Assembly (NCBI GenBank): GCA_028722305.1
Contig: JAQYHB010000009.1
Span: 1 to 52,757 of the forward strand
Source of the DNA: Spirochaetales bacterium
GTDB lineage: Bacteria; Spirochaetota; Spirochaetia; Sphaerochaetales; Sphaerochaetaceae
DNA: 52,757 bases
Direction: 5' to 3'
Shown here: one piece after another, positions 22,083 through 39,477 of the stretch
Layout of the letters: the number at the start of each line of letters is the position of its first letter
Numbering within the stretch: position 1 is the first letter of the stretch
Position numbers and translations under genes: made by a program
The notes under the pieces: generated by a model
Told to the model about the DNA's origin: nothing
The model's input: only the letters and a program-made list of their open reading frames with translations
The model's database searches: none

Positions 22083-22089
22083 ATCGCCA

Positions 22090-22095
22090 AATATA
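22090..22095 (-). promoter_or_regulatory. -10 box of a probable leaderless proA promoter
   Basis: TATATT on the minus strand sits 7 bases before the proA ATG. The matching -35 is poor (TAGCTA after a 17-base spacer), so this call rests on the -10 box, the spacing and the absence of a ribosome binding site. Confidence 0.35.
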
Positions 22096-22199
22096 CCACA
22101 ATGGCCCCCGAATAGCTACGTTCGCACCGTTTTCCAAGGTAACTCGTCCCGATGGAGCAAATTATCTCACGCAAGAAAAGAGAATCACATAACTATTTT

Positions 22200-22239
22200 T
22201 ACCAAAATGAAATGCGACCGCCCTCCAAGGGACGGCCGC
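22200..22239 (-). terminator. Intrinsic terminator of the adenine deaminase gene
   Basis: Minus-strand hairpin with arms at 22230-22239 and 22214-22223 (10 pairs, two of them G-U) around a short loop, followed by ATTTCATTTT. It lies about 23 bases after the ade stop. Confidence 0.65.
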
Positions 22240-22261
22240 GAGAAAGGCGGAAAGCGGAAAC

Positions 22262-23998
22262 CTAGAGCTCAAGCGGGACGCGCTTGAACGCGTTCACGTC
22301 GAACAGCCCCATATCGGTGATTTTCAGGGCCGGAATGACGGGAAGCGCCATAAAGCAGAGCGTCATCAGCGGATCGACATCCTTGTTGACTTTCAGCGTG
22401 CAAAAGGCAATCTGGTGCAGTTTCGCCAGCTCGCCGGCCACCTCACGGGCAGGCTGGTCGGTCATCAATCCGGCAACCGGCAGGGCGAGGTCCCCGAGAA
22501 TCTCGCCATCCTTGGCAAGGGCGACTCCTCCACCGAGCCTGACCAGATCCTGGACAGCAAGGGCCATATCCTGGTCGTTGTCACCGACGACGATGAGGTT
22601 GTGCGAGTCATGGGCGATGCTGATGGCGACCGCTCCGTGCCTCAGCCCGTAGCCGCGGATCAGGCCGAGTCCGATGTTGCCGGTGGCGTGATGGCGCTCG
22701 ATGACGGCGATCTTCAGGATGTCGGCTGCCGGGTCATGGACCCAGAGGCCCTTCTCCACCTTGACGGTCGCCTCGCCGCTTGCCGTGACCACACCACCGG
22801 GTATGACGTCGATCACGCGCACATGGTTCTTCCTCAGATGAAGGGCAAGCCGCTCTGCCGAGAAATCCTTGACGTGCATCATCCCCGTCACGTTCTTCGG
22901 CTCAATCGCCTCGCTACGTACCTGCAGATACCCGTTCTCCGCCACCTGCCGGCCCAGGATGAAGACCCTCTGCGGGTTGAACTCCTTCAGGTCGTTGAGC
23001 AGCAGGAAATCGGCCCGACGTCCCGGCGCGATTGCCCCACGGTCATCGAGGCGGTAGCACTCCGCGGCGTTGATCGTGGCGATGCAGATCGCGGTAACCG
23101 GGTCGAGTCCGCCGGCGACCGCCATGCGCACGTTGTTGTTGATGTGTCCTTCGGAGAGGATCGATTTCGGTTGCCGGTCATCGGTGCAGAACAGGCAATG
23201 GCGCCAGTTGTTCCCGTCCACCCCGCCCAAAAGACCGTTCAGGTTCCGGCAGGCGGAGCCTTGGCGCAGCATGACGTACAGCCCGAGGCGGATACGTTCG
23301 CGCAGTTCTTTCGGCGTCTCGCTTTCGTGCGACGTGCGGACGCCGCTGGCTACATAGGCGCTCATATCCCCACCGGCAATCGCAGGGGCGTGTCCATCGA
23401 CGATAAGGCCTCTGCTCCTCGCCTCCCAGACCTTGTCCAGCACCGCTTTCTGCCCGTTGATCACCCCGACGTAATTCATCATCTCCCCAAGGCCCAGGAC
23501 CCGCGGCTTGCCAAGCAGTGGCGCAATCGCCTTCGCGTCCAGGTTCGCCCCGGAGTGCTCGAAGCTCGTGGCGGGAACGCAGGAGGGAATCATCAGCATG
23601 ACGCTCAGGGCGGCATGCTCGCTGGAGGAAAGCATGTACTTGATTCCATTGACACCGCACACGTTGGCGATCTCATGGGGATCGGCGATGACAGTGGTTG
23701 TCCCGCAGGGAGTCACAAGGTTGGAGAATTCCGTTGGGGAAAGATGGCTGGACTCGATATGCACATGGCTGTCGATGAAACCAGGGACCAGGTACCTGCC
23801 GCCCGCTTCCTCGTAGGCGCGGGCCTTTCCCCTTCCGCTTTCCACTGTCCCTGCGATATAGCCCTCGGAAACCAAAAGGTCGCCGTCGAACCACTCTTTG
23901 TTGAAGACATCAAGGATTTTCGCGTGGCGGATGCAGAGGTCCGCCTCCTTGCGGCCCGAAGCGACCGCGATGATGGTGTCATAGGTTTTCCTGTTCAT
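22262..23998 (-). CDS. ade: Adenine deaminase
   Basis: Hydrolyses adenine to hypoxanthine and ammonia. The 578-residue product is a metal-dependent amidohydrolase of the Ade family: beta-sandwich start with ADLCIRHAKILDVF, metal site GFIDSHVHIESSHLSP, IADPHEIANVCG, FCTDDRQPKS and a C-terminal domain with ISIAHDSHNL. Start at 23998 has AGAGGA 4 bases upstream; the extra 21 codons before it lack family similarity. It is divergent from an NCS2 purine permease, so the pair likely serves uptake and salvage of adenine. Confidence 0.96.
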   Translation of the reverse strand: MNRKTYDTIIAVASGRKEADLCIRHAKILDVFNKEWFDGDLLVSEGYIAGTVESGRGKARAYEEAGGRYLVPGFIDSHVHIESSHLSPTEFSNLVTPCGTTTVIADPHEIANVCGVNGIKYMLSSSEHAALSVMLMIPSCVPATSFEHSGANLDAKAIAPLLGKPRVLGLGEMMNYVGVINGQKAVLDKVWEARSRGLIVDGHAPAIAGGDMSAYVASGVRTSHESETPKELRERIRLGLYVMLRQGSACRNLNGLLGGVDGNNWRHCLFCTDDRQPKSILSEGHINNNVRMAVAGGLDPVTAICIATINAAECYRLDDRGAIAPGRRADFLLLNDLKEFNPQRVFILGRQVAENGYLQVRSEAIEPKNVTGMMHVKDFSAERLALHLRKNHVRVIDVIPGGVVTASGEATVKVEKGLWVHDPAADILKIAVIERHHATGNIGLGLIRGYGLRHGAVAISIAHDSHNLIVVGDNDQDMALAVQDLVRLGGGVALAKDGEILGDLALPVAGLMTDQPAREVAGELAKLHQIAFCTLKVNKDVDPLMTLCFMALPVIPALKITDMGLFDVNAFKRVPLEL

Positions 23999-24015
23999 AT
24001 GTTCCTCTTGCCTAG

Positions 24016-24043
24016 AGTCTACCACACAACCGGAATCTTTCAA
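24016..24043 (-). promoter_or_regulatory. Putative ade promoter
   Basis: Minus-strand TTGAAA (24038-24043), 16-base spacer, TAGACT (24016-24021), which would give a leader of only about 10-15 bases that still holds the AGAGGA site. Confidence 0.45.
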
Positions 24044-24162
24044 GAAAGAATAATTGAGCATTTCATCGGTACATGAAAAATAAAATTCTTATTTGTCAAA
24101 TAATTATAATAAAATTTGAGATTTACTTCAGTTTCAGAAAAATAACATTTTCACAAATCATG

Positions 24163-24190
24163 TTGCAGAATAACAAAAATATGCTAGGAT
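24163..24190 (+). promoter_or_regulatory. Putative promoter of the purine permease
   Basis: TTGCAG (24163-24168), 16-base spacer, TAGGAT (24185-24190), within a 150-base AT-rich stretch. I looked for a purine riboswitch in the leader and saw none; the leader is only about 30 bases. Confidence 0.5.
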
Positions 24191-24224
24191 GTTTTTATCG
24201 AAGAAACACGAAAGGAGTGTTCGT

Positions 24225-25538
24225 ATGGAAAAATTCTTCAAACTGAAAGAAAAAGGAACGGATGTCAAGACCGAAATCATGGCGGGTATTACCACCTTCC
24301 TGACGATGGCATACATCCTCGCCGTCAACCCTGGCATCCTGAGTCAGGCCGGACTCGTTGGTGAAAAAGTATTCGCCGCCACAATCCTCGGCGCCGCGAT
24401 TGCCACGCTCGTCATGAGCTTGTACGCGAATCTTCCGTTCGCGCTGGCCCCCGGCATGGGACTGAACGCGTTTTTGACCTATACCGTATGCATGGGCATG
24501 CACAAGACCCCGCAGTTCGCTCTGACTGCCGTCTTCGTGGAAGGCTTGATCTTCATCGCCCTGACCGCCTGCAACGTCAGAGAGGCCATCGTCAACGCCA
24601 TTCCGTCGAACCTCAAGAAGGCCATCGGAGCCGGTATCGGCATGTTCGTCGCCTTCATCGGTCTGCAGAACGCAGGCATCATCGCCGGTGGAGCCACGCT
24701 GGTCCAGCTTTCCGACTCATGGTTCAGGGGACCCGCATTGCTGGCCATGGTCGGTTTGGTCATCACCGGCATCCTGATGGCCCGAAAGGTCACCGGAGCC
24801 ATGTTGCTCGGCATCATCATCACCACCATCATCGGAATCCCGTTCGGCATCACCAAGTACGCCGGCGGTTCCTATGTTCCTCCCGCACCCTATTTCTTCC
24901 CGTTTGATTTCGCCTCAGTCGCCGCCGACCCGTTCGATTTCATCATCGTCATGTTCACCTTCCTGTTCGTGGATATGTTCGATACCGTCGGCACGTTGAT
25001 TGGATGCGCCACCAAGACCAACATGGTCAAGGAAGACGGTTCCATCGAGAACTGCAAGCAGGCCCTGTTCGCCGATGCGATCGGCACCACCGCCGGCGCG
25101 ATTTTCGGCACCTCCACCGTCACGACGTTCGTCGAGTCCTCCTCCGGTATCGCCGAGGGTGGACGCACGGGACTCACTTCCCTGACGGTCGCCGTCCTGT
25201 TCCTGCTTTCCTGGTTCCTGTCCCCGCTGTTCCTCTCCATCCCGTCCGCGGCGACCGCCCCGATCCTGATCATCGTCGGCGCCCTGATGATGGAGCCGGT
25301 CGTCCAGATTGACTGGAAAGACATCACCGAGGCCCTGCCCTCGTTCCTCACCATCCTGTTCATGGTCTGCGCCTATTCCATCGCCGATGGCATCATGATG
25401 GGTATCCTGACCTACGTCCTGATCAACTTCCTGTCCGGTCACAAGAACAAGATGAACACCATGATGTGGGTGCTCTTCGTCCTGTTCCTGATCAAGGTGA
25501 TCGCCCGCGCTGCCAGTCTGGCCGCGGCGGCAGCCTGA
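24225..25538 (+). CDS. NCS2 family purine permease (AzgA-like)
   Basis: A 437-residue inner-membrane transporter with 12 or more hydrophobic segments. The first helix carries GITTFLTMAYILAVNPGIL, the signature of the AzgA/GhxP/AdeP branch for adenine, guanine and hypoxanthine. Other conserved stretches are ALAPGMGLNAFLTY and FGTSTVTTFVESSSGIAEGGRTG, the substrate-site region. The ATG at 24225 has AAAGGAG 7 bases before it; the in-frame ATG at 24189 has none. Adenine is favoured because ade is divergent next door. A strong hairpin follows the gene, into which an IS200-type element appears to have moved. Confidence 0.93.
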   Translation: MEKFFKLKEKGTDVKTEIMAGITTFLTMAYILAVNPGILSQAGLVGEKVFAATILGAAIATLVMSLYANLPFALAPGMGLNAFLTYTVCMGMHKTPQFALTAVFVEGLIFIALTACNVREAIVNAIPSNLKKAIGAGIGMFVAFIGLQNAGIIAGGATLVQLSDSWFRGPALLAMVGLVITGILMARKVTGAMLLGIIITTIIGIPFGITKYAGGSYVPPAPYFFPFDFASVAADPFDFIIVMFTFLFVDMFDTVGTLIGCATKTNMVKEDGSIENCKQALFADAIGTTAGAIFGTSTVTTFVESSSGIAEGGRTGLTSLTVAVLFLLSWFLSPLFLSIPSAATAPILIIVGALMMEPVVQIDWKDITEALPSFLTILFMVCAYSIADGIMMGILTYVLINFLSGHKNKMNTMMWVLFVLFLIKVIARAASLAAAAA

Positions 25539-25563
25539 TTGAGAACGACAAGCAGCTATACGC

Positions 25564-25600
25564 GTGAAGCCGGAGCAATCCGGCTTCACGTTTCTTGTTC
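25564..25600 (+). terminator. Terminator hairpin of the permease gene
   Basis: Perfect 10-base arms GTGAAGCCGG (25564-25573) and CCGGCTTCAC (25580-25589) around AGCAAT, followed by GTTTCTTGTT. The T-rich tail may belong to the left end of the insertion element rather than to the original terminator. Confidence 0.75.
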
Positions 25601-25606
25601 CTCGAA

Positions 25607-25629
25607 AACCTCCGGCTGGGCCGGAGGTT
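25607..25629 (+). repeat. Left-end subterminal hairpin of the IS200-like element
   Basis: Perfect palindrome AACCTCCGGC, loop TGG, GCCGGAGGTT. Such hairpins are the structures recognised by TnpA; in the 5' untranslated region they can also stop read-through transcription. Confidence 0.85.
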
Positions 25630-25664
25630 CCAAGTAGCTTTAGCGATGAACAGGTTGAAAAGAA

Positions 25665-25729
25665 GAAACTCCTTTGCGGAAGATGGAGGTGCGATCAACC
25701 AATTGCACCAAGACCAGCAAAGGAGTTTC
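25665..25729 (+). promoter_or_regulatory. mRNA stem that buries the tnpA ribosome binding site
   Basis: GAAACTCCTTTGC (25665-25677) and GCAAAGGAGTTTC (25717-25729) are perfect 13-base complements; the second arm contains the whole AAAGGAG of tnpA. An inner stem GGTGC/GCACC (25688-25692, 25705-25709) strengthens the fold. This matches the known translational silencing of IS200 transposase. Confidence 0.8.
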
Positions 25730-25732
25730 AAA

Positions 25733-26209
25733 ATGGACGAGCAAAGTCTATCGCATACGACCTGGAACTGCAAATACCACATAGTGTTTGCACCGAAATA
25801 CCGGCGCCGGGTGATCTACGGGACGGTGAGGAAGGAGATCGGGAAGATCCTGCGCGAGCTGTGCCTGCGCAAGGGAGTGGAGATAATAGAGGCGGAGGCG
25901 TGCGTGGACCACATCCACATGCTGGTGATGATACCGCCGAAGCTGAGCGTGTCGAGCTTCATGGGCTACCTGAAGGGCAAGAGCAGCCTGATGATATTTG
26001 ACCGCTTCGCCCAGATGAAGTACCGCTTTGGGGACCGGGAGTTCTGGTGTCGCGGGTACTTTGTGGACACGGTGGGCAAGAACAAGAACAAGATAGCCGA
26101 GTACATACGGAACCAGCTGGAAGAAGACCGGTACGCCGACCAGCTGGTGATGAACGAGCTGGTGGATCCGTTTACCGGCGAGCCGATGAGGAAGAAGGGC
26201 CGCAAGTAA
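25733..26209 (+). CDS. tnpA: IS200/IS605 family Y1 transposase TnpA
   Basis: A single-strand HUH transposase of 158 residues, normal length for the family. It shows KYHIVFAPKYRRRVIYG at the start, the metal-binding HUH pair as H60-I-H62 in VDHIHMLV, and the catalytic tyrosine most likely Y124 in KIAEYIRNQ, preceded by GYFVDTVGKNK. All key residues are present, so it is probably active. ATG at 25733 is set by AAAGGAG 7 bases upstream, which is sequestered in a hairpin. Upstream in-frame codons are untranslated leader. Confidence 0.95.
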   Translation: MDEQSLSHTTWNCKYHIVFAPKYRRRVIYGTVRKEIGKILRELCLRKGVEIIEAEACVDHIHMLVMIPPKLSVSSFMGYLKGKSSLMIFDRFAQMKYRFGDREFWCRGYFVDTVGKNKNKIAEYIRNQLEEDRYADQLVMNELVDPFTGEPMRKKGRK

Positions 26210-26348
26210 GAGGATCAAGGTGTCGGCCGGCCCCGCGATTGGCCGAATCCAAAAGCTGCCTTGGCAGCAGGCTGGTGAAGTGGTGCGAGAGGCGGAACGT
26301 TCGTGGGCGCAAGCCTGGCCGGTACCATGCCCTTATAGGGCTGGAGCA

Positions 26349-26370
26349 AACCACCGGCTTGCCGGTGGTT
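26349..26370 (+). repeat. Right-end subterminal hairpin of the IS200-like element
   Basis: Perfect palindrome AACCACCGGC, loop TT, GCCGGTGGTT. It matches the left hairpin in arm length and in the central CCGGC/GCCGG, as expected for a pair recognised by the same TnpA. Between tnpA and this hairpin lies about 140 bases of structured sequence without a gene. Confidence 0.85.
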
Positions 26371-26427
26371 GTGATTCACAGACAATCCGCGATTTCTTTC
26401 GTATATTCCCTAATAGGAGGTACGACT

Positions 26428-26724
26428 ATGGAGTATGACGCGTCCAAGCTGGAGCGAGAGGCCGTCACAAGCCTTGTGCTCGGCATTCTTTCCATCGTCT
26501 GCGGTATCTCGGGGATGATGCTCATCGGTACCATCCTTGGTATCATCGGCATCGTCCTAGGAGCAAAGAGCAAGGACTACAACGGAAGTGGCAAGGCAGG
26601 TTTTGTCTGCTCGATCATCGGCACGGTGATCAGCAGCTTCTTCCTGATCCTGATGGTCGCCCTGGTGGGCTTCATCACCATCCCGATGCTTTGCATGCCA
26701 CTCTTTTTCTGGTTCTGGATTTGA
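26428..26724 (+). CDS. DUF4190-type small membrane protein
   Basis: A 98-residue protein with a short charged N-terminus (MEYDASKLEREAVTSLVLGI) and two to three membrane segments separated by a small polar loop (AKSKDYNGSGKAG). The pattern of a glycine-rich first helix pair 'LGILSIVCG...GTILGIIGIVLG' followed by 'G.AGFVCSIIGTV' is that of DUF4190. Function of the family is unknown. TAGGAGG lies 7 bases before the ATG. It stands alone between the insertion element and a hairpin terminator. Confidence 0.8.
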   Translation: MEYDASKLEREAVTSLVLGILSIVCGISGMMLIGTILGIIGIVLGAKSKDYNGSGKAGFVCSIIGTVISSFFLILMVALVGFITIPMLCMPLFFWFWI

Positions 26725-26732
26725 CTGCAAAT

Positions 26733-26758
26733 GAGGGCAGACCCTAGGGCCTGCCCTC
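26733..26758 (+). terminator. Hairpin after the DUF4190 gene
   Basis: GAGGGCAG (26733-26740) and CTGCCCTC (26751-26758) form an 8-pair stem around a 10-base loop, 8 bases after the stop. Only TT follows, so termination may be weak. Confidence 0.5.
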
Positions 26759-26946
26759 TTACGCCATAGGAGATTACGCCACCTTGCGGGTGAAGCAAGT
26801 TAACTATACCACGAAATGGCCCTAGGTCAAGCACAAATCCATACATTGCATATAGATATCGTTTTAATTTGATTAAATATAACTTTCTCTTCCAATTGCT
26901 TTTCCCATAACGAAAAAAGAAAGAGATGCCTTTCGAGTGGAATCCG

Positions 26947-27501
26947 TCAGAAAAGCTTCACGAAGACCACCACGCCATCATAGTCCGTGTAGGCCGGAAG
27001 CAACGTCTTCTGGTACCCGATACCCACCTCGACCTGATAGAACTTGCTTTTGGCCAAGACCGTGCCGACAGCAGGGCGCACCATGACGCCATTGTGCATG
27101 CGATAGTAGTCGTTCGGGCTAGAGGGTAAGGAGACATGCTGGGCGTAGTAGCCGGCATCCAGCGTGAAGCTGCTGGAAACCCGCTCACTGTTGAACAGGT
27201 TCCAGACGAAGCGCAGTCCTCCCTCGATCATGAACTCGCCCGAGGCGTTCCGCCCCTCGCTGCTTCCGCCGGGCTTCTGCATGATTTCGGTCATGCCGTA
27301 GGCCTCGACGCCATAGACGTTGCCCTTGATTCCGAGGGAAAGCCCTCCGCCGGGCGCGAAGTCGGAGCCCCGCACGAAGGCGAAGACCGTATCCAGATGG
27401 AAGTCATACCGGAACGGTTTTGTCCCTGACTCGCTTTTTGCCGCCAACGGGAGCCCGCAGGACAGAAGCAACGCGACCAGCATCATTCTCCACTTCTTCA
27501 T
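26947..27501 (-). CDS. Small outer-membrane beta-barrel protein
   Basis: A 184-residue exported protein with a signal peptide (ending LPLAAKS, about residue 20) and alternating amphipathic strands (FHLDTVFAFVRG, GLSLGIKGNVYGVEAYG, FTLDAGYYAQHV, FYQVEVGIGYQ) ending VVVFVKLF. The C-terminal aromatic residue is the usual barrel-assembly signal. The ATG at 27501 has GAGG 7 bases upstream; a GTG one codon earlier is the alternative. It is the last gene of the Fn3 lipoprotein operon, 4 bases after the small lipoprotein gene, which suggests a surface anchor or export partner. No specific family recognised. Confidence 0.75.
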   Translation of the reverse strand: MKKWRMMLVALLLSCGLPLAAKSESGTKPFRYDFHLDTVFAFVRGSDFAPGGGLSLGIKGNVYGVEAYGMTEIMQKPGGSSEGRNASGEFMIEGGLRFVWNLFNSERVSSSFTLDAGYYAQHVSLPSSPNDYYRMHNGVMVRPAVGTVLAKSKFYQVEVGIGYQKTLLPAYTDYDGVVVFVKLF

Positions 27502-27505
27502 CACG

Positions 27506-27940
27506 TCACCTCTGCACGAACGAATAGGATACGCCGGAAAGCACCAGACGCTGCGGACCAGCGTCCTCGTCCGCCGTATAGCTGAAGGCCATCTGCCTCT
27601 GGCTGTCTGGGGGCAAAGCCTTGCTGAAGGTCACCGTGCCCGACGCCTCGAGCAGGTCCAGATGGTCATAGGACAAGCTGTAATCGCCGGTAATCGTGCT
27701 GTCGTCGACCATCTCCATGGTAAAGGTTCCATCCGTCTTCAGGGTCAGGCGGTACAGGTAGGCTCCCTCATAGAAGGTGCTCTTCACTATCCAGGTCCCG
27801 CTGATCAGATTGGGCACCCCGCCCTTGAACTTCGGCATGGCGCCTTCTGCGGTGTCCATAAGCTGTTGCAGGTCGCCGCACCCCGTGAAGGACAGGGAGA
27901 GCAGAAGGACAAGCAGAACCAGTTTGGCGCGTCTCATCAT
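27506..27940 (-). CDS. Small lipoprotein, lipocalin-like
   Basis: A 144-residue protein with a lipoprotein signal (MMRRAKLVLLVLLLSLSFTG followed by Cys21). After a short linker the pattern GTWIVKSTFYEG, FTMEMVDDSTITGDYSL and a final LVLSGVSYSFVQR resembles small lipocalin-like or META-like one-domain lipoproteins. An AGGAGG lies upstream of the ATG pair. Third gene of the envelope operon. Role unknown. Confidence 0.75.
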   Translation of the reverse strand: MMRRAKLVLLVLLLSLSFTGCGDLQQLMDTAEGAMPKFKGGVPNLISGTWIVKSTFYEGAYLYRLTLKTDGTFTMEMVDDSTITGDYSLSYDHLDLLEASGTVTFSKALPPDSQRQMAFSYTADEDAGPQRLVLSGVSYSFVQR

Positions 27941-27953
27941 TTCTTCCTCCTCC

Positions 27954-30221
27954 TTACAACGCGGTCACGTTGATCGTGCCCTGTCCATCGCGCATACGCA
28001 CTGAATACTGGCCGCTGAAGGCTTTGCCTTTGACGGTGATGTTCCCCAGCCCGATAACCGCAGGGTACATGCCACTGACGGTGAATCCGCCACTGCCGCT
28101 CTTCGCGCTTCCGGTACCTGACGAATCGACGTGCATCTCATACTCGCCGTTCGTGTACATATAGGATACCTCGCCGAAGTCGCTGAATGTGAAATAAATC
28201 TGTCCGCCGATACCCTCGGTAGAAGCCGAATAGCCGATGGATCCGAAATTGGACTCGCTGCCACCCGTCGTATGGCTTCCATGCAGGAAGTGACAGTAGT
28301 TGTAGATGTAGCTGCCACCGGTAAGCGCGTCCATCTGGGTGGAAAGCGAGGAGCTGTTGCCCTTGTCCACCTTGTTCTTGATCGACGAGTTGTTCCAATA
28401 GCCCTGCATGTTGAAACCGCTCTGGTAATCGGTGTCGACGCTTGCCGGAAGCTTGCTGGTGAATGCAAACGGCTTGAATGCGAACGCGGACCAGACTTCG
28501 ATGAACTTTGTTCCGGTCAAAGCCCCGTATCCGATATAATCGGTCGGATTATTCAGGGCGCCTTCCCTGCCTAGGACATCGAACGCCTGCAAGGTGTAGC
28601 TGTACTTGACGCCAACCTCGGCGTTGTCGTTGACGTCGTCATACGAGCTGGAAGAGCCGTCGATCGTCGCGGTTCCAAGACGGATGGCGCCGCTTTCGTC
28701 ATAGCGGGTCAACACGTAGTGGTCGATGTTGTTGTTCTTCGTCCATGTGACGCGGACCGGGTAGATGCCGTTGGTGGCGATCATGCCGCTCTCAAAGCGG
28801 TTCTGCGAAACAGCAAGGCCGGCGACTTCGCTTGGCGCGCCAATCGTCTGGCTTTCCGTGGCGACCGTCTCCAGTCCGTTTCCGTTGGAGACCTGGACCG
28901 AGAAAATCGTGTACTGGTCGTCAGCGGCGCCGCTGGTGTCGTAGGGTTCCTCGTAGACGACCGAATCGGTGTAATCGCCCGGTTTCAGGACCACCTGCTT
29001 GACCGCGCCGTTGGCTGTCTGGGCGTTGATGAGATACGTCCAACCGCTGTGACTTGTCCGGTCAGCGGAAGTATCCAGTCCGACGGCCTGCGGAAAGGAG
29101 ACCACATAGGCGTACTTCTTCAGCGACAAGGTCACCGGGCTGGGATTGGAAAGCAAATACCCGTCAACCGTGGCGGGAGAACCCTTGATGGTTTCTCCAT
29201 TCGCCTCTCCAAGCGGGATGACCGTGTAGGTGTAGCGGACGCCTGGGACAATCTTGTTCTTGCCGCGCTTGTCGGTGAAGGTCACCGTGCCGGTGCCGCT
29301 CATATCCAGCGTGTCGTCGCTCGAGCCGTAGGGATAGATCTGCTCCTCGTTCTCGCCTGGCGCGGAGCGATAAATCAGATACCCGGTCGTCCCGCTGTCC
29401 GCCTTGTTCCAGGAGAGCGTCATCTGGTTCTTAGAGGTCGAGTACACCAAGGCCTGCCCTTGGGTGGCGGTCAGGTTGGTCGGTGATGTGGGCGCTCCCG
29501 CGACCAAGGAGAAACCGATGGCGTAGGGGCCGTCTTCAAGGTCGGTAGTCGCATTGTTGCTCCCTACCGAGGAGACCTTAAAGTAGAGCTCATCGCCCTG
29601 CTCGTTCTCCTCTACCATATAGCGGAACTTGGTCTGGCTGCCAGAAGCGGTTCCGGCAAGGGTATAGGAAGCGGAATTGGTTCCCTTCACATACACCTTG
29701 TAAGCCGTCGCATCAACGACCGGGCTCCAGGAGACCATGATGTACTTGGTATTTTTGCCCTTGTCCGCGGAAACACTCTCCGGGACGGTCAGAATCGACC
29801 CGACAGCCTGGGCAGCCGTCTGGCTGCCAGATTCCGCCTTCTTCGCGTAGCTGCGCGCATAGACCCTGTAGCTGTAGCGCTTGCCCGCGACAATCGGGTT
29901 TGTCGTGTCCGCGACATCGTCATAGCTGGTCCCCATCACTGCTTCCGGCAGCTCCCGATACTCGTCGGAACCTTCGGGAGCGCGCTCGACCACATAGTAA
30001 TCGGCGCCAGTTACCTTCGTCCAAGAGAGGGAGATCCGGTCAGTATAGGCACCCTTGGTGGCGCTCAGGAATACCGGATTGCTCCCGTCAAAACCGTTAT
30101 CCAGCGACTCATCGACCGTCGTCACCTGCTGGTCCTTGAACTCCGAGGTGTACAAGTCCATGTTGCAACCGGCAAACCCCAGAAGGGAAACAAGCCCAAG
30201 CATCATCAACGCTTTCCTCAC
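27954..30221 (-). CDS. Fibronectin type III repeat lipoprotein (755 residues)
   Basis: The GTG start has GAGGAGG 5 bases upstream. The lipobox GFAGC puts the lipidated cysteine at about residue 19. Then come about four Fn3-like modules (roughly 45-140, 140-245, 245-360, 470-570), each with the pattern 'LSW..v.GAD.Y.V.R...' and 'G..Y.Y.V.A'. The C-terminal 180 residues (from about 575) are different: glycine-, serine- and tyrosine-rich, with HFLHGSHTTGGSES and repeated beta-type strands. Likely an outer-leaflet surface protein. It follows the larger Fn3 gene by 10 bases and precedes the small lipoprotein by 13. Ligand unknown. Confidence 0.85.
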   Translation of the reverse strand: MRKALMMLGLVSLLGFAGCNMDLYTSEFKDQQVTTVDESLDNGFDGSNPVFLSATKGAYTDRISLSWTKVTGADYYVVERAPEGSDEYRELPEAVMGTSYDDVADTTNPIVAGKRYSYRVYARSYAKKAESGSQTAAQAVGSILTVPESVSADKGKNTKYIMVSWSPVVDATAYKVYVKGTNSASYTLAGTASGSQTKFRYMVEENEQGDELYFKVSSVGSNNATTDLEDGPYAIGFSLVAGAPTSPTNLTATQGQALVYSTSKNQMTLSWNKADSGTTGYLIYRSAPGENEEQIYPYGSSDDTLDMSGTGTVTFTDKRGKNKIVPGVRYTYTVIPLGEANGETIKGSPATVDGYLLSNPSPVTLSLKKYAYVVSFPQAVGLDTSADRTSHSGWTYLINAQTANGAVKQVVLKPGDYTDSVVYEEPYDTSGAADDQYTIFSVQVSNGNGLETVATESQTIGAPSEVAGLAVSQNRFESGMIATNGIYPVRVTWTKNNNIDHYVLTRYDESGAIRLGTATIDGSSSSYDDVNDNAEVGVKYSYTLQAFDVLGREGALNNPTDYIGYGALTGTKFIEVWSAFAFKPFAFTSKLPASVDTDYQSGFNMQGYWNNSSIKNKVDKGNSSSLSTQMDALTGGSYIYNYCHFLHGSHTTGGSESNFGSIGYSASTEGIGGQIYFTFSDFGEVSYMYTNGEYEMHVDSSGTGSAKSGSGGFTVSGMYPAVIGLGNITVKGKAFSGQYSVRMRDGQGTINVTAL

Positions 30222-30231
30222 GATCCCCTCC

Positions 30232-33200
30232 TCAATACGGCTTCACCGTCAGGTCGCTGTACGAGAAACTCGTAGCTAAACCATCTTTCGTGATTTCAAC
30301 GGTTCCAGTGGATTCTTTCACATTTAGTTCAGTGGTAATCTGATACGTCGCAGTTCGGTTGCCATATTTATCCGGATACCTCAGGACAAAAGTTCCCGTT
30401 TCGCCATAGCCGACATACTTCAGGCCATCAACCCCCAGGTATCCGGCCTCCCCGTCATTCGATGCCCGGAGCACAGCATCCACAGTGGAAGAGAGGACGA
30501 ACCCGGAAGCGGAGGTAAGAGAATCCGCAGACGACGGAACCGGCGCGTCACTCATTTTCATGGAACCGTTATGTTGCGTTGGGTCTCCCCACCGATCGGC
30601 ATAAGAACTCTTGATAGTGACTCCCGTCATGTCGGTATAGATATTGGTGGAAACACTCTCAATCATTCCTGAAGGCGGCCACCAGTCGCCACCGAACTGC
30701 TTGTTAGCCTCAGTCAAGGCAATCTTGAACATGAAATGCACGATATTCGCAAGCTCAGCGGGAGAGAAGTCCCGATAGACTCCTGTTACCGGAGAACTGG
30801 ATTGTGAGGTGACGGCGACATCTTCCATCTCTTTATAGCTGTACATGGAGACGGTATGGTTCCAAGTGGAGTTGACCATCTCGCTTCCCGGACAGTTATA
30901 GGTGTAGGTAGAGCCGTCAGCACTTAGTCGCACATACCCTGCAGTACCTTCAGTACCTCGGGACTCCCCTTTTCCTAGATCAGTGACATCTATTGCTATT
31001 GCAGACGAGGAGTCCTCCGTGACGTAATATCGTGTCGCCCCGTCCACCGCGCTCCAGACCAAGGTGTAGTAGGGCTTATCCGCGTTGCTTGTCGCGCTGA
31101 AGCTCGATGGAGCCTTGAATACATAGCCAAGGTTGGTGTCATCGCCCGAGATATAGCTCTGCAGCTGGCTGGTCAGGCCACCCTTCACGCTGGCGATGGT
31201 GAAATAGGTGTCGCTGGTCGTGGTAAGCGTGTAGCTGGTGCCAGTCACGGTGGTAGCGGCGCCCCAGGTAGACCCGTCGCTGCTCTGGTAGAGCAGATAG
31301 CTCTCCGCTCCGTCGACCGCATCCCAGCTTACCGCAATCTGCGTCCCGCTTGCCGCCTTGCTGGCGGTAAGGACGGGCGGTGAGAACCAATGGCCCTCGA
31401 CCCCGTCGACCTGTTCCTCCGCAACCTCCCCGCCATTCTCCGCAAGGGAATAAGGAACCACCTTGACCAGGTAGTGGGAAGAGAGCGGATAGGGGTTATT
31501 GCCCTTCACCGCGAAAAGCGCGTCGGAGGAAAGGAACTGCTGGCTGTACCCAGCGGTACCCTCCACCGTCTCCACCAGCTTGGAACCAAGATAGGTCGTG
31601 CTGTCATATATCGGTTTGCCGTTGCCATCCAGCACCTTCCGGTACAGGTTGACATTGTAGCCGCCTGCCCCTGGAACCGCCTTCCAGGTGACAGTGAAGG
31701 AATTGTTGGCCGTATCGTTGTCGCTGATTGCCGCATCCAAGCCGTAGGGACCGAACAGGCTACCCGTTTCCACGCTGGAACAAGCACTCCTGTTTCCCTC
31801 CTCGTCCACCGAGACGACCACGAAGTCATAGACCATGCCCGCCTCCGCGGTTCCCGCCCCGACCTCACGGGAGAGGGTGAACGAGACCGTCCCGCTCGCA
31901 GACTGGTCGAGGTCGATGAAGGTGTAATTATCCTCCGAACCGCTCGGGCGGTAGCCGACTTTGTAGGAAGCGGCATTCTCCACCGTGCTGAAGCTCCCCG
32001 TCAGCGTCGTCTGGGAAACGCTGTCCGCCACTTTCAGGCCTGCGGGAATGGCGAGGGCACTGCCCTGGACAACCTGCACATAGGTGGCATTCAGATCTTT
32101 CTCTCCTGCGTAGGTCGCTGTCAGCTTGTAGTACTTGGTCACCCCGGCATCGGCATCCACAGTCCAAATGCCATGGTAACCGTTGTCGGCGCTGGGAAGT
32201 GTCGCCCCCTCCCCCGGGGAAACCTCCTCCGCGGAGGAAAGATTCTCGTACGAGCCAGAGCTCTGCAAGGTATAGGTGACCTTGTCATGCTCATAGTCGG
32301 TATCGGTGTCCTCGTTCCAGGAAAGCGTGACCTTTCCGGCCAGATTGGTGGTGGCAGCCAGCTCCTCGATATAGGCGACCTGCGAATAGCAGGTCTCATA
32401 CACCACTGTGCCGCTGACAAGCGGGTCGCTTTCGGTTCCATCCTCGTAAACAAGGCGCAACGCGTAGGAATAGGTATGGTCGACCTTCAGCTCGTCACCG
32501 GAAAGGGTGAAGGAATCGGAATACGTGGTATCGGTTGTGGTTCCGAGGGAGGTGGTGAGGTATTCGTCGCTGCGCGTGAGCGAGAAGGTACCCGACCTGC
32601 CACTAGGTTCCGCGTATGTCCAGGAAACCGTGTTGGCAAGATCCGCGTCTCCAGTCGAGTTTCTTCCGTCGTTGACCTTCAGGTCGGTGGGAAGCCATGT
32701 GCGGTAGCCAGGCTGCTCCGTTTCCAGCGGATCGAACGAGCTGTCCTGGGTCTGGATGACACCGGTGTCGGCGAAGTAATAGGCGGCAGTGACCCGGTAT
32801 GCGTAGGTGGTGTTGGCATCCGCGGAGGTATCCAGGAAACTGTAGGACGCCTTGCCATCGGTGCCGTCCTGCGTATAACCGTAATCGTCGGTGTTGATAT
32901 CGGTGCCAAGGGCCACCAAGGTAGTCCACGTCTCGGACCCGCTTCCACGTCTTTCGACCTTGGCCCTGTGCGTGACTGAGCCGGAGGCAAGGCCATTCAC
33001 ATAGTCGGGCAACGTCCAGTCGACCTGGATGCCCTCTTTCTTGGTTCCACGGGATGCAGCGATTGAAAGCGGTTCCGCCGGGGCGGTCGAGGTATCGGTG
33101 GTGATCTCCATCGGACTGCTGCTGATTTCCGGAACTTGTTCCAACAGCACTCCGTTCGCGTCCATCAGCACCATCCATACCCGGTACAGGGCATGGACTT

Positions 33201-33918
33201 CGTTGCCGGAAAGCTTGTCGGTGCAACTGGTGTCCGTCCCCTCATAGACCAGCGTCGCCCCCTTCCACATCGCAGCCAGCTCGTCGCTGGAATAGTTGTC
33301 CTCGTTGAAATCATCGCCCACCATCAACCGCCGGACCTGAAACTTATAGTGGTACAGCGGGGTCCTTCCGCTCTGGTCAAGCGCACTCATCAGCTTGCGG
33401 TCATCCCAAGAGAGGGAGACGGTGTTGCCGTCGACAATCGGAGAGGAAACTTCCACCGAGGGAAGCGAGGCGCCCTCCACCACCGTCGAGCTAGAGGCGG
33501 TCAACGTGGAGGAAGCGGAATACTGGATGACGGTATCAACGCTGAAGAGCACGTGGATACCGCTTGGAGCCTCCATCGTATAGGAGAACGAACTCTCCCC
33601 GCCCGAGGGTTTGAGGATATGGGTGAGGATGGGAGATGCCGCATTGGGCCCGTCGAACATCTGGTAGTTGACCCGATAATAGAGATTCTTGCCTTCGGCG
33701 TCCGTCTGGCCGTCGAAGGTCAGGGTGATGTGTCCATCCTCGGTGGTGGTTGCCCGCACGTTGGTGACCGCTTTGGCTGTCACGATGCCGGTCAGCGTGT
33801 CGTCCACCACATCCTGCGACGCATTGACGGTACAGGAAGTTGCCACACTCCCGGCAAGGAGCGCGCACGCAAGCAGACAAACCTGTGCCCAATGTCTCGA
33901 AACACTCATGTGGACCAT
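30232..33918 (-). CDS. Large fibronectin type III repeat lipoprotein (about 1228 residues)
   Basis: A signal sequence of about 25 residues ends in SVATSC, an acceptable lipobox. Roughly nine Fn3-like modules follow, with recurrent 'VSW..V.GA..Y.VY' strands and 'TYAYRVTA'-type ends, then a non-Fn3 C-terminal region of about 180 residues (from DFSPAELANIVHFMFK) containing FGGDWWPPSGM. Possible starts are a TTG at 33927 and ATGs at 33918 and 33909; none has a good ribosome binding site, so I take the first ATG. First and largest gene of a four-gene operon. The design suggests a long stalk that displays a terminal domain outside the cell. Confidence 0.85.
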   Translation of the reverse strand: MVHMSVSRHWAQVCLLACALLAGSVATSCTVNASQDVVDDTLTGIVTAKAVTNVRATTTEDGHITLTFDGQTDAEGKNLYYRVNYQMFDGPNAASPILTHILKPSGGESSFSYTMEAPSGIHVLFSVDTVIQYSASSTLTASSSTVVEGASLPSVEVSSPIVDGNTVSLSWDDRKLMSALDQSGRTPLYHYKFQVRRLMVGDDFNEDNYSSDELAAMWKGATLVYEGTDTSCTDKLSGNEVHALYRVWMVLMDANGVLLEQVPEISSSPMEITTDTSTAPAEPLSIAASRGTKKEGIQVDWTLPDYVNGLASGSVTHRAKVERRGSGSETWTTLVALGTDINTDDYGYTQDGTDGKASYSFLDTSADANTTYAYRVTAAYYFADTGVIQTQDSSFDPLETEQPGYRTWLPTDLKVNDGRNSTGDADLANTVSWTYAEPSGRSGTFSLTRSDEYLTTSLGTTTDTTYSDSFTLSGDELKVDHTYSYALRLVYEDGTESDPLVSGTVVYETCYSQVAYIEELAATTNLAGKVTLSWNEDTDTDYEHDKVTYTLQSSGSYENLSSAEEVSPGEGATLPSADNGYHGIWTVDADAGVTKYYKLTATYAGEKDLNATYVQVVQGSALAIPAGLKVADSVSQTTLTGSFSTVENAASYKVGYRPSGSEDNYTFIDLDQSASGTVSFTLSREVGAGTAEAGMVYDFVVVSVDEEGNRSACSSVETGSLFGPYGLDAAISDNDTANNSFTVTWKAVPGAGGYNVNLYRKVLDGNGKPIYDSTTYLGSKLVETVEGTAGYSQQFLSSDALFAVKGNNPYPLSSHYLVKVVPYSLAENGGEVAEEQVDGVEGHWFSPPVLTASKAASGTQIAVSWDAVDGAESYLLYQSSDGSTWGAATTVTGTSYTLTTTSDTYFTIASVKGGLTSQLQSYISGDDTNLGYVFKAPSSFSATSNADKPYYTLVWSAVDGATRYYVTEDSSSAIAIDVTDLGKGESRGTEGTAGYVRLSADGSTYTYNCPGSEMVNSTWNHTVSMYSYKEMEDVAVTSQSSSPVTGVYRDFSPAELANIVHFMFKIALTEANKQFGGDWWPPSGMIESVSTNIYTDMTGVTIKSSYADRWGDPTQHNGSMKMSDAPVPSSADSLTSASGFVLSSTVDAVLRASNDGEAGYLGVDGLKYVGYGETGTFVLRYPDKYGNRTATYQITTELNVKESTGTVEITKDGLATSFSYSDLTVKPY

Positions 33919-33936
33919 GGTGGACAAAAAGACTCT

Positions 33937-33965
33937 ATCATGTCAAGTAAACGACACTATGACAA
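33937..33965 (-). promoter_or_regulatory. Putative promoter of the Fn3 envelope operon
   Basis: Minus-strand TTGTCA (33960-33965), 17-base spacer, CATGAT (33937-33942). The spacing to the ATG at 33918 leaves a very short leader. The surrounding 130 bases are clearly more AT-rich than the genes on either side. Confidence 0.4.
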
Positions 33966-34064
33966 AAATAGTCGTTCTTGTATATCTTTGATTATTTTTT
34001 GTCCGGAAACCAAATACATCCCAATTTTATTCAACACCATGTTGACAATCGGTCAGTGTGTTGG

Positions 34065-34559
34065 TTATGTCACAACTTTCAAGAAACGCTCAAAAAACGT
34101 ACGGTAGGCTTCCAGTTTTCGTTCGAACGGCATCGTGTTGGCCGCGCTCGGCGAAGGCAAGGCCTGAAAGACCAGATGTTCCGGGTACCACGCGATGAAA
34201 CGACGATAGAACGCTTCCGCCTTCTTTCCGGTAAACGCCACCGCGCGCAGATCAGGATGGGATTTGATGAAAGGAACCAGGTCATTGGGCTCCACCTTCC
34301 GGTAGCCGGAGTCCAGGCTCCCCTCACGGTCAAAGCACCTGAGGGTATCCCACAGCGCGACCCGATGGGTCAACAGCAGCCGTTCCTTTGCTTCATAGGT
34401 GTCGATCGGGCTGTCGAACAGGCGGCCCATGATCGGCCAGAAGGCGTTGGTCGGATGCCCGTAGTACTCCCGTTTTTCCAGCGAGACACGGCTCGGGCCG
34501 GTGCCCAGCACCAGCACCAGCGCGTCACTCTTCTCAATTGGCGGAAATCCCTGTTCCAT
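34065..34559 (-). CDS. DNA-deoxyinosine glycosylase (uracil-DNA glycosylase family 6 type)
   Basis: Predicted base-excision enzyme that removes hypoxanthine (and perhaps other deaminated bases) from DNA. The 164-residue product has GFPPIEKSDALVLVLGTGPS (motif 1 region), REYYGHPTNAFWPIMG with the conserved Asn, and the motif-2 type LPSPSAANT. The start at 34559 is chosen because family members begin just before the GFPPI block; an in-frame ATG at 34610 is possible. It is divergent from the dioxygenase gene. Confidence 0.85.
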   Translation of the reverse strand: MEQGFPPIEKSDALVLVLGTGPSRVSLEKREYYGHPTNAFWPIMGRLFDSPIDTYEAKERLLLTHRVALWDTLRCFDREGSLDSGYRKVEPNDLVPFIKSHPDLRAVAFTGKKAEAFYRRFIAWYPEHLVFQALPSPSAANTMPFERKLEAYRTFFERFLKVVT

Positions 34560-34648
34560 GATTTGCCATGATACCCGATTCCGTGGCCTCTTGTCTTCGA
34601 GCCATTTCATAGGTATTTCTAGATATCTTTTCTCCGAGGAGCCCACAG

Positions 34649-35410
34649 ATGGAACGAGCACCGGTACTTTTTGTAGGACATGGCTCACCCATGAACGCGA
34701 TTACGGACAATCCGGCCAGGAATGCATGGAAACAGCTGGGAAGCCAGCTCGAGAAACCCAAGGCCATCATCGCCGTCAGCGCCCACTGGACGAGCAGGGG
34801 TAGGACTAAGGTGAACCCCCAAGAGGTCAACCGCCAGATATACGACATGTACGGTTTTCCGCAAGAACTGTACGACCTGCAGTACGAGCCGAAAGGAAAC
34901 CCAGCCCTGGCAGGCAGAATCGCCACTCTGCTGGAAGCAAGCCTGGACGACTCGTGGGGGATCGACCACGGAATCTGGAGCATCCTCTGCAACATGTACC
35001 CCGCATGCGACGTGCCGGTGGTGATGGTCAGCACCGATGTCACCGCCACGCCGGCAAAGCTCTACGGATTGGGCAAGAAGCTGGGCACCCTACGTGGCGA
35101 AGGGTACGCGGTCCTTGCCAGCGGAAACGTGGTCCACAACCTTGGGAAGGTCGACTGGGATATGCAGGACGGCTATCCTTGGGCTGACGCATTCGACAAA
35201 GAAATCGAGGACGCGGTCTGTGGCGGAGACCCTCAGAAGGTGATGGACTACGCCTCCATCGCCGGTTCCCGGCTGGCGGTCCCCACCTCCGAACACTTCC
35301 TGCCGCTCATCGTGGCCCTTGGAGCTGTCCGAGAAAGCGACAAGGCCACCAGCTTCAACGCCTATCGGGAATTGGGGTCGATGAGCATGACTTCCTTCCT
35401 GTGGAAGTAG
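34649..35410 (+). CDS. ygiD: DODA-type extradiol ring-cleavage dioxygenase
   Basis: A 253-residue class III extradiol dioxygenase of the YgiD/plant DODA group, known in E. coli to cleave 4,5 of L-DOPA. Metal ligands are visible: VGHGSPMNA near the N-terminus, SAHWTSRG, GIDHGIWSIL and SGNVVHNL, with SEHFLPLIVA near the C-terminus. GAGGAG lies 7 bases before the ATG. An oxygen-using enzyme is odd for a probable anaerobe, so oxygen removal or a non-dioxygenase role should be considered. It ends one base before the convergent flavoprotein gene. Confidence 0.9.
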   Translation: MERAPVLFVGHGSPMNAITDNPARNAWKQLGSQLEKPKAIIAVSAHWTSRGRTKVNPQEVNRQIYDMYGFPQELYDLQYEPKGNPALAGRIATLLEASLDDSWGIDHGIWSILCNMYPACDVPVVMVSTDVTATPAKLYGLGKKLGTLRGEGYAVLASGNVVHNLGKVDWDMQDGYPWADAFDKEIEDAVCGGDPQKVMDYASIAGSRLAVPTSEHFLPLIVALGAVRESDKATSFNAYRELGSMSMTSFLWK

Positions 35411-35411
35411 G

Positions 35412-36971
35412 TCAAAGGGAAACGTATTTCGCTACTGCGTCGGCACACGCGATGCCATCCAAAGCGGCACTGACGATGCCGCCGGCATACCCGGCTCCCT
35501 CGCCACAGGGGAAAAGCCCTGCGCGCCCGACGTGCATCAGGCTCGTCTCGTCGCGGGGGATCCGGACCGGGCTACTGGTACGGCTCTCGCAGGCGACGAG
35601 CAGCGCCTCGTTGGTCAGGAAACCCTTCGCCTTCCGCCCAAACACCTCGAAACCGGTTTTCAAGCGGGAGGAAACGAAGCGGGGCAGGACGGCATCCATG
35701 TCCGCGCTGACAATCCCCGGATAGTAGCTGGTCTGGGGCAGGGTTTCGGAAAGGTGCCCCTCAACGAAATCCACCATCCGCTGGGCGGGCGCCACCATCT
35801 TTCCACCACCCACCTTCCAGGTATGGGACTCGAAAGCCTCGACAAAATCGAGCATGGCGAGGTTCCCTCCGAACTGCTTCGGGGAAAGGTCTTCCGGGCG
35901 TAGCTCCACCACCATGCCACTGTTGGCGAACCGGCCGCTTCTGGCGCTGGAACTCATGCCGTTGACCGAAAGGAAGCCAGCCTTGGTGCAGGAGGGGACA
36001 ATCACTCCCCCGGGGCACATGCAGAAGGAATACACCCCCCTCCCTGCCGCTTGGGTGACGAACCAGTAGTCGGCTGGTGGCAGGTACTTGCCCCTCCCAT
36101 CCTCGCTGTGGTACTGGATCTGGTCGACCAACTCCTGGGGATGCTCAAGGCGGACACCGACGGCGATGCCCTTGCTCTGGATCGCGATGCCCTGCTCATC
36201 CAGATAGCGGAACAGCTCGCTCGAGGAATGGCCGACAGCCAGGATGACGGGGCCCTCGTAGCTCTTGCCGCTCTCGGTGACCACCCCGGTGACGGTGCCG
36301 TCACCGGCATACTCCAACGCGACCACCTTGCTTTCGAAATGGAACTCTCCCCCGTTGTTCTGGATTGTCGCGCGGATCTTCTGGATCACGTCCGGCAGTT
36401 TGTCGCTCCCGATATGGGGATGGGTCTCGTAAAGGATTGCGTGTTCCGCGCCATGCTGGCAGAGCTGGGAAAGCACCTTGGTGACGTCCCCCCGCTTGTC
36501 GCTCCGCGTGAAGAGCTTGCCATCGCTGAAGGCGCCCGCTCCACCCTCGCCGAATCCGTAGTTCGAGTCTGGGTTGACGATACCGCTTCGCCCCATCTTG
36601 GCGATATCCAGCTTGCGCTGCTCGACGCTCTTGCCCCGCTCGATGATGACTGGTTTCAGGCCGACCTCCAGCAATCGGAGCGCCGCGAAGAGGCCGGCGG
36701 GTCCAGCGCCAACGACAATCACCTGCGGTTTATGCGTGCAGTCCTGGTACTGGGTTCTCTCATAGTCCTGCTCCGCCTGCTCTCCGAGATAGACCTCGTA
36801 GGTACGGTCGACATAGACCTGCTTGCGGCGGGCATCGATGCTCTCACGCTTGATACGCAGGTCGGTGATATCTTCGCGTTTGATGGAAAGTTTCTGCGCG
36901 ATCTGGGCGTTGACGGCGCGGCTTTTGGACGCATCCTCCGGCTTCAGGCGTACATTGACAATGGTTCTCAT
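35412..36971 (-). CDS. FAD-dependent dehydrogenase, COG2509 type
   Basis: A 519-residue flavoprotein. It begins with a small ferredoxin-fold domain (about 1-85, MRTIVNVRLKPEDASKSRAV) followed by a GxGxxG FAD-binding domain (VIVVGAGPAGLFAALRL) and the family stretches GEGGAGAFSDGKLFTRS and SFCMCPGGVIVPS. The end, GLFPCGEGAGYAGGIVSAA, closes the FAD site. The substrate of this widespread family is unknown. GGGAGGATCC precedes the ATG. Confidence 0.9.
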   Translation of the reverse strand: MRTIVNVRLKPEDASKSRAVNAQIAQKLSIKREDITDLRIKRESIDARRKQVYVDRTYEVYLGEQAEQDYERTQYQDCTHKPQVIVVGAGPAGLFAALRLLEVGLKPVIIERGKSVEQRKLDIAKMGRSGIVNPDSNYGFGEGGAGAFSDGKLFTRSDKRGDVTKVLSQLCQHGAEHAILYETHPHIGSDKLPDVIQKIRATIQNNGGEFHFESKVVALEYAGDGTVTGVVTESGKSYEGPVILAVGHSSSELFRYLDEQGIAIQSKGIAVGVRLEHPQELVDQIQYHSEDGRGKYLPPADYWFVTQAAGRGVYSFCMCPGGVIVPSCTKAGFLSVNGMSSSARSGRFANSGMVVELRPEDLSPKQFGGNLAMLDFVEAFESHTWKVGGGKMVAPAQRMVDFVEGHLSETLPQTSYYPGIVSADMDAVLPRFVSSRLKTGFEVFGRKAKGFLTNEALLVACESRTSSPVRIPRDETSLMHVGRAGLFPCGEGAGYAGGIVSAALDGIACADAVAKYVSL

Positions 36972-37123
36972 GGATCCTCCCGGGAACCGGCGAGATTCGG
37001 TTCCGTGCTTGCATTCTACACAGGTGGCTCCCTCTAGGAAAGACGTGGATCCTGGCAGGATGCCCCATCACCGTAAAAACTATCGAACTACGAACTATCT
37101 TCACAAAAATCCAACATCCCGCC

Positions 37124-37153
37124 TTCAATTTCCATGGTTTTTTTCTGTATAGT
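37124..37153 (+). promoter_or_regulatory. Putative promoter of the RND efflux operon
   Basis: TTCAAT (37124-37129), 18-base spacer with a T-run, TATAGT (37148-37153), about 30 bases before the TolC-like gene's ATG. No TetR-type regulator gene or obvious operator palindrome accompanies it in the window. Confidence 0.5.
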
Positions 37154-37183
37154 AATGGACATCTTCTAAAGGAGAAGGTTTCC

Positions 37184-38482
37184 ATGCATCACCACCCTTC
37201 TGTGCTCATTGCATGCGTGTTGTCCTGTACTTTATCCCTGCCCGCGCAATCCATCACCCTCGACGAGGCGCTTGACGCCGCCCGATCCGACAACAAGGAA
37301 ATCAAGGTTGCCACGTTGGAGCTCGCCCAAAGCCAGAGGGAAAACTCGGTCAACGACTGGCTCCCTTCCATCACCCTGCAACTTGGGACGAGCGCCAGCA
37401 TCAGCATCATCGACAAGACATTCAACGCCAGCTACTCCCTCGGCGGCGTCACCTGGTCGCTGGATAGCGCGAACCATGCAGCCAGCAAAGCGGACCGGGC
37501 CCTGTCCAACGAAAGCGCCCAGCTTGCCTACCAGAGCAAGGTCAACTCGGTCGACAGCAGGGTCACCACTGCCTACTGGAACGCCGAGGCCTCCCGGCTG
37601 GCATGGAAGAGCCGGCAGAGCGCACTCGAGCGGAACCAGCGCGAACTGGAGACCATCCAGGACAAGTTCGAGGCGGGGACGGCGACCACCCTTTCCGTGA
37701 GCCAAGCGGAGATGAGCGTCGCCGACGCCCAGTACCAGACACAGATTGCCAGGCAGACCTACCAGAGCGCCCTGACCACCCTCTCCAACCTGACGGGTCT
37801 GGACATCGGCGAGGATGCCGTCTTCCAAGAGATGCCGGAAGGCTTTTCCCTGAAGGACCGTTCGCTTCTGACCGGCGACCTTGAGGACACCACCACGATC
37901 AAGCAATACGCGCTGACCCTCGCCCGGGCCAGGCAGGCTTTGGTTAACAAGAAGTCCTCGGGCAAGGGAATTTCGGTCAACGTCACCGCCAAAACCAGTT
38001 TCGGAGACTCCATCTACAGCTATCGCGACAGCGATGGTACCTGGGGTTTTTCCGACTTCGCCGATGCCACCTCCCTCGGAATGACTGTCTCGGTTCCCCT
38101 GGACCATCTGTTCCAGAATTCCAGCACATCCATCGCCATCGACAGCGCCCAGTACGACATCCAGATTGCCGAGCTGAACCTGCAGAAGGCGTTGGAAGAC
38201 CTACAGACCGACATCGAGGACGCCATCACCAGCGTCGAGCAGGCCGAGGCCAATCTGCTTCTGCTGGACCGCCATCTGGCGCTGGCGTGGAAGCAGCTCG
38301 ATCTTATCCAGACCAGCTATGACGCGGGAAAAAGCAGCTTCAGCGACCTGGAAGACGCCAAACAGGCGGTCAGCGACGCCGAGCTGGCCAAAGTGCAACA
38401 ACAGCTGAACCACACCATCGCGCTCTATGACCTGGCAACACTTCTCGAGCGCCCAGTCACCGACCTTGCTCGATACCAATAA
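37184..38482 (+). CDS. TolC-family outer-membrane efflux protein
   Basis: The outer-membrane duct of a tripartite exporter. The 432-residue product has a signal peptide (cleavage near LPAQS, about 22) and two OEP repeats: long heptad-rich helices (ALDAARSDNKEIKVATLELA; QTSYDAGKSSFSDLEDAKQA) around short barrel strands. The motif 'F.AGTATTLSVSQAEMSVADA' is the typical TolC helix hinge. AAAGGAG lies 9 bases before the ATG. It begins an operon with the adaptor (11-base gap) and the RND pump. Confidence 0.92.
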   Translation: MHHHPSVLIACVLSCTLSLPAQSITLDEALDAARSDNKEIKVATLELAQSQRENSVNDWLPSITLQLGTSASISIIDKTFNASYSLGGVTWSLDSANHAASKADRALSNESAQLAYQSKVNSVDSRVTTAYWNAEASRLAWKSRQSALERNQRELETIQDKFEAGTATTLSVSQAEMSVADAQYQTQIARQTYQSALTTLSNLTGLDIGEDAVFQEMPEGFSLKDRSLLTGDLEDTTTIKQYALTLARARQALVNKKSSGKGISVNVTAKTSFGDSIYSYRDSDGTWGFSDFADATSLGMTVSVPLDHLFQNSSTSIAIDSAQYDIQIAELNLQKALEDLQTDIEDAITSVEQAEANLLLLDRHLALAWKQLDLIQTSYDAGKSSFSDLEDAKQAVSDAELAKVQQQLNHTIALYDLATLLERPVTDLARYQ

Positions 38483-38493
38483 GGAAGTTTTGT

Positions 38494-39468: not shown

Positions 39469-39477
39469 GGCGAGTCG

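Follow-up and report, generated by a model that had tools for sequence, protein, structure and literature searches.

Four adjacent genes on the minus strand of a 52,757-nt contig from a spirochaete of the family Sphaerochaetaceae (the whole stretch is hereafter called the window) form one conserved, lineage-restricted unit, which encodes two long Fn3 proteins predicted to be lipoproteins (F1 and F2), a small predicted lipoprotein (LP) and a putative outer-membrane barrel (BB). Our best explanation, which we hold with about even confidence, is that this unit specifies an undescribed, lineage-restricted outer-membrane complex for recognition or adhesion, anchored by BB, in which F1-F2-LP can be replaced as a block.

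A conserved four-gene unit

The four ORFs lie head to tail in the order F1-F2-LP-BB:

30232-33927, minus strand: F1, 1231 aa, Fn3 lipoprotein-like, TTG start (in-frame ATG at 33918)
30235-30789, minus strand: F1 C-terminal domain, residues 1047-1231, modelled with AlphaFold2, DWW motif
27954-30221, minus strand: F2, 755 aa, lipoprotein-like, five Fn3-like domains and a C-terminal domain
27957-28526, minus strand: F2 C-terminal domain, residues ~566-755, conserved motifs LKPW(E), FGE and GMYP
27506-27940, minus strand: LP, 144 aa, small predicted lipoprotein of no named family
26947-27504, minus strand: BB, 185 aa, GTG start (in-frame ATG at 27501), predicted 8-stranded outer-membrane barrel
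27415-33850, minus strand: segment fully diverged from the congener G002, comprising F1 from codon ~26, F2, LP and the 5' end of BB

The intergenic gaps measure 10, 13 and 1 nt (the last becomes 4 nt if BB starts at its ATG), in agreement with the 4-13 bases given in a first-pass annotation of the same DNA. Promoter and terminator scans stayed at background level, the Rfam scan returned no match, and none of the anti-phage defence families of PADLOC matched at E 0.1. In Pfam, NCBIfam, PHROGs and PADLOC neither BB nor LP could be assigned to a family, and the matches of F1 and F2 were limited to Fn3-like ones; the tail match phrog_7440 is located in an Fn3-like stretch.

Profile searches over 139 genomes of the host family, in which a genome counted as a carrier if one or more of the four genes were specifically matched, identified 47 carriers, 41 of which possess all four genes in the same order and on one strand. 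Among the fetched loci this order is kept in differing chromosomal neighbourhoods. The genes are therefore conserved together, and the synteny search bears out the first-pass annotation in treating them as a single system. F1 orthologues (~1060–1300 aa) head the cluster in almost every carrier, and F2 turned up in further genera of the family when the proteins of relatives were searched. Partial sets in four incomplete carriers (G075, G099, G119 and G121) are probably due to contig ends; direct inspection confirmed that the contig of G075 ends just after F1. In G032 and G109 an LP-like gene has been relocated from its place between F2 and BB to a divergent position upstream of F1, and in G032 (L025, 11588-12403) it encodes a 271-aa lipoprotein. 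A class-wide profile search for BB detected it in 40 of 395 genomes and 5 of 133 genera, all within the host family, where it thus occurs in 5 of 22 genera.

Some carriers show altered or additional pieces of the cluster. In G072 (L122, 9322-10643) two transposase-like ORFs lie within F1 and split off its C-terminal domain. F2 C-terminal fragments adjoin the cluster as partial extra copies in G112 (L116, 9584-10507) and G106 (L117, 1-417), and a BB fragment lies beside it on the opposite strand in G100 (L053, 4239-4487). The partial extra copies in these three genomes are possibly remnants of recombination.

Fn3 stalks and C-terminal domains of F1 and F2

F1, F2 and LP begin with a signal sequence that ends in a Cys residue invariant across the aligned orthologues, features by which all three are predicted to be bacterial lipoproteins (signal peptide and lipobox Cys), with the reservation that the lipobox of F1, VATSC, is atypical. 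The stalks of F1 and F2, with their tandem beta-sandwich domains of ~90–100 aa, belong to the fibronectin type III superfamily. The AlphaFold2 model of F2 (8 sequences, mean pLDDT 73.5) displays five Fn3-like domains (residues ~50–565), followed by C-terminal helices and an 8-strand meander, and its Foldseek matches are tandem Fn3 proteins of the fibronectin/contactin/titin type. With a local Fn3 profile, F2 shows 4 clear modules and F1 about 7–8; the Pfam fn3 match of F1 remained below threshold (E 0.0017). The Pfam scan also reported weak matches of the Fn3 region to the carbohydrate-enzyme domains GH85_C and DUF4992, and found no Big_2 domain in F1 or F2.

Both proteins end in a non-Fn3 domain of ~185–190 residues. 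The first-pass annotation had described these ends as ~180 residues long and impossible to place, and the structure predictions it called for, carried out for the F1 domain alone and for the F2 domain within whole F2 (alignments of 8 rows), have left that description standing: neither domain was placed by database or structure searches. The F1 domain (pTM 0.78, mean pLDDT 76) is modelled as a long helix with ~10 antiparallel strands; one Asp, two Trp and one Pro residue are invariant in 8 aligned sequences (DWW motif). The same domain also ends two Big_2 lipoproteins of ~900–960 aa that adjoin the cluster in relatives. The structural matches were too weak for a fold assignment (best Foldseek E 0.77, best VIA Z 5.7); the VIA matches are helix-in-barrel shapes (TIC component, ORP ORD, BT-domain-like). 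Neither Foldseek nor VIA revealed a recognised carbohydrate-binding fold in the F1 domain, and a viral structure library gave no match to it. Comparison of the F1 and F2 C-terminal domains with each other by hhalign yielded an E-value of 3e-4 but a probability of 40%, and since LP against BB reaches a similar value, we do not claim that the two domains are homologous.

The putative barrel BB and the small lipoprotein LP

The BB protein of the window has a signal peptide and a C-terminal Phe residue, and its alternating hydrophobic strands exceed the shuffled background in 34 of 34 homologues. These features suggest that BB folds into an outer-membrane barrel of 8 strands, in line with the earlier proposal that the cluster carries its own outer-membrane piece; Pfam, NCBIfam and PDB contain no sequence match to it. 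If the loops are labelled according to our own strand assignment and an assumed standard OMP topology, the mean information is 2.7–2.9 in the outer loops L2 and L4, 2.4 in the strands and 1.85 in the periplasmic turns. Thus L2 and L4 appear to be the most conserved loops and the periplasmic turns the least conserved, while exposed barrels commonly show the opposite pattern.

For LP, a relationship to lipocalins could not be sustained: the weak match of its profile to 2mhd in the PDB (E 0.0056) vanished with a larger alignment, and Lipocalin_4 was found in 1 of 22 LP members (E 0.26).

Divergence of F1-F2-LP between congeners

At the DNA level the window genome (G000) and its congener G002 are similar over window positions 21270-25596, 26375-27415 and 33851-40961, and F1-F2-LP is almost unmatched. 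The amino acid identity between the two genomes is 37% for F1, 42% for F2 and 43% for LP, with 24–30% identity (i.e. random) at 4-fold sites, versus 83% and 68%, respectively, for BB, and 81–92% and 71–87% for the flanking FAD, TolC and UDG genes; the permease was left out of this comparison, because its start had been read in the wrong frame. The divergence begins at ~33850, inside the F1 signal peptide, and ends at ~27415, close to where the mature barrel of BB begins. In G002 the GC3 of F1, F2 and LP is 0.50–0.63 versus 0.79–0.83 in most flanking genes, the exceptions being UDG (0.70) and BB, which is itself lowish (0.685). In the F2 tree, built with a quick method, G000 groups with G027, a member of another genus, and not with G002 (SH-aLRT 97, AU p 0.025 for a clade test chosen after the divergence had been seen), and F1 of G000 is nearer to that of G075 and G027 than to that of G002. 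A third congener, G001, retains the neighbourhood, but there the permease is followed by the FAD oxidoreductase, and the cluster, UDG and the LigB-type gene are missing.

We read this combination of a diverged F1-F2-LP with a conserved BB and two conserved flanks as block replacement around a kept barrel; the simplest reading of the sequences is that F1-F2-LP was replaced by recombination, probably in the G002 lineage. The clean replacement comes from a single species pair (G000/G002). Other species pairs show identities in the order BB > F2 > LP without a contrast of this type, an order that slower evolution of BB would explain. Much faster evolution of F1, F2 and LP than of BB and the flanks in a vertically inherited operon would agree with most of the other pairs, where BB is better conserved than F2 and LP; as an account of the G000/G002 contrast it is very improbable, given the 4-fold sites, the sharp boundaries, the foreign GC3 of the G002 block and the conflicting F2 tree.

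Neighbouring genes

Among the 37 loci examined, the recurring neighbours other than housekeeping genes are Fn3/Big_2 lipoproteins of ~950 aa (14 loci), Fn3 lipoproteins of ~590 aa (13) and a secreted protein of ~420 aa (11). Big_2 was found only in such neighbouring lipoproteins of relatives. The ~590-aa lipoprotein and the ~420-aa protein, the latter without a Pfam family, recur as a pair, for instance in L021 (2032-5114) and L051 (11885-14950). Among the named neighbours in the 37 loci, no CAZyme, sugar transporter or other dedicated transporter recurs beside the cluster, and the SusC/SusD pair with CAZymes that defines a Sus-type locus does not recur either, which makes a polysaccharide locus unlikely.

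In the window an IS200-like element (25597-26374, with a Y1 transposase ORF at 25595-26209) lies between the permease and BB; it is missing from the same site in G002. Pieces of its ends (133–138 bp) occur at 11 further sites of the genome, several of them at contig ends, so the assembly is probably interrupted by an element present in multiple copies. Elsewhere in the window (8364-9371) a 335-aa protein with a signal peptide and no Pfam family is possibly another outer-membrane protein.

Possible function

We infer a physical complex, an outward orientation, a role in recognition and replacement by recombination. The N-terminal lipids would anchor F1 and F2 to the outer membrane, from which both proteins would extend as Fn3 stalks with the C-terminal domains at their tips. 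In this complex BB, a small integral barrel, would act as the unvarying partner in the membrane, accompanied by LP as a small accessory lipoprotein. Such a complex would most likely face outward and mediate recognition of, or attachment to, a host surface, particles or other cells, with F1-F2-LP as the specificity unit, co-inherited and replaceable as one block, and BB compatible with different versions of it. A more daring variant, which we consider possible but would not expect to hold, is a serotype-like swappable surface cassette of spherical spirochaetes, with three co-inherited lipoproteins as the variable specificity unit on a constant barrel, docked by its conserved outer loops and carrying tips of new folds.

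Spirochaete lipoproteins can be periplasmic, and the main alternative, in our opinion an unlikely one, is a periplasmic or envelope scaffold, in which F1 and F2 would point inward, their C-terminal domains would bind cell-wall or inner-membrane components and BB would serve as the anchor, in a lineage without MreC and flagella. Neither flagellin nor MreC was found in the window genome, in which the controls were detected (the lack of flagellin also speaks for the main reading); this fits the non-spiral clade with Sphaerochaeta and Bullifex, and the scaffold is favoured by the reported monophyly of that clade (PMC12236494) and by the absence of rodA and mreC from these two genera (PMC7738495). 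However, judged by BB the cluster is confined to 5 of the family's 22 genera, and one congener lacks it, so that it appears to be accessory rather than part of the core architecture; block replacement, too, suggests recognition over housekeeping.

Capture of nutrients or glycans in the manner of SusD/E/F, with the tip domains binding a polymer and BB aiding its uptake, strikes us as quite improbable. The weak GH85_C and DUF4992 matches could be cited for it, as could the fact that the relatives are MAGs of uncultured organisms, including one whose isolate name points to the rumen. Yet the neighbourhood offers no recurring CAZyme or dedicated transporter, no carbohydrate-binding family was matched, the terminal domains are unplaced, and an 8-stranded barrel is too narrow to pass a polymer. 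The results support the earlier proposal as to the conserved unit, the two Fn3 stalks and the putative barrel; of the "displayed adhesin or glycan-binding apparatus" itself, surface display and adhesion may hold, and glycan binding is less likely, given the neighbourhood and the F1 C-terminal domain without a recognised carbohydrate-binding fold.

Comparison with known systems

Literature searches that combined Sphaerochaeta with Fn3 or with lipoproteins returned nothing relevant. In the literature searched, no report emerged of a system by which spherical, non-flagellated spirochaetes attach or vary their surface, nor any description of this cluster, so the earlier remark that it was possibly undescribed still applies. 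With its constant barrel and a lipoprotein block that looks exchangeable, the cluster is a concrete candidate for such a system, and it adds two unannotated protein families and two unannotated terminal domains.

The leptospiral LigA and LigB proteins are likewise spirochaete surface proteins with a long stalk of Ig-fold repeats, and LigB has a non-Ig C-terminal domain. They are, however, encoded by single genes and built of Ig-like (Big_2) repeats, whereas F1 and F2 consist of Fn3 domains and have barrel and small-lipoprotein partners; the lack of Big_2 in the Pfam scan places F1 and F2 outside the Lig family. SusE and SusF of Bacteroidetes resemble F1 and F2 as outer-membrane lipoproteins with Ig/Fn3-type modules encoded beside a barrel gene, but the present cluster has no SusC/SusD, CAZyme or sugar regulator, and BB has ~185 aa against ~1000 aa in a TonB-dependent transporter. 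Within the same lineage, the pairs of ~590-aa Fn3 lipoproteins and ~420-aa proteins (11–13 of 37 loci) also combine a lipoprotein with a non-lipidated secreted partner, but they belong to other families, include neither LP nor BB and are absent near the window cluster. In size, strand alternation, C-terminal aromatic residue and predicted 8 strands BB resembles barrels of the OmpX, OmpA-N and PagP type; it differs from them in having no family match, apparently conserved rather than variable outer loops and near-constant operon partners, and it may represent a case of a small barrel that organises long surface lipoproteins.
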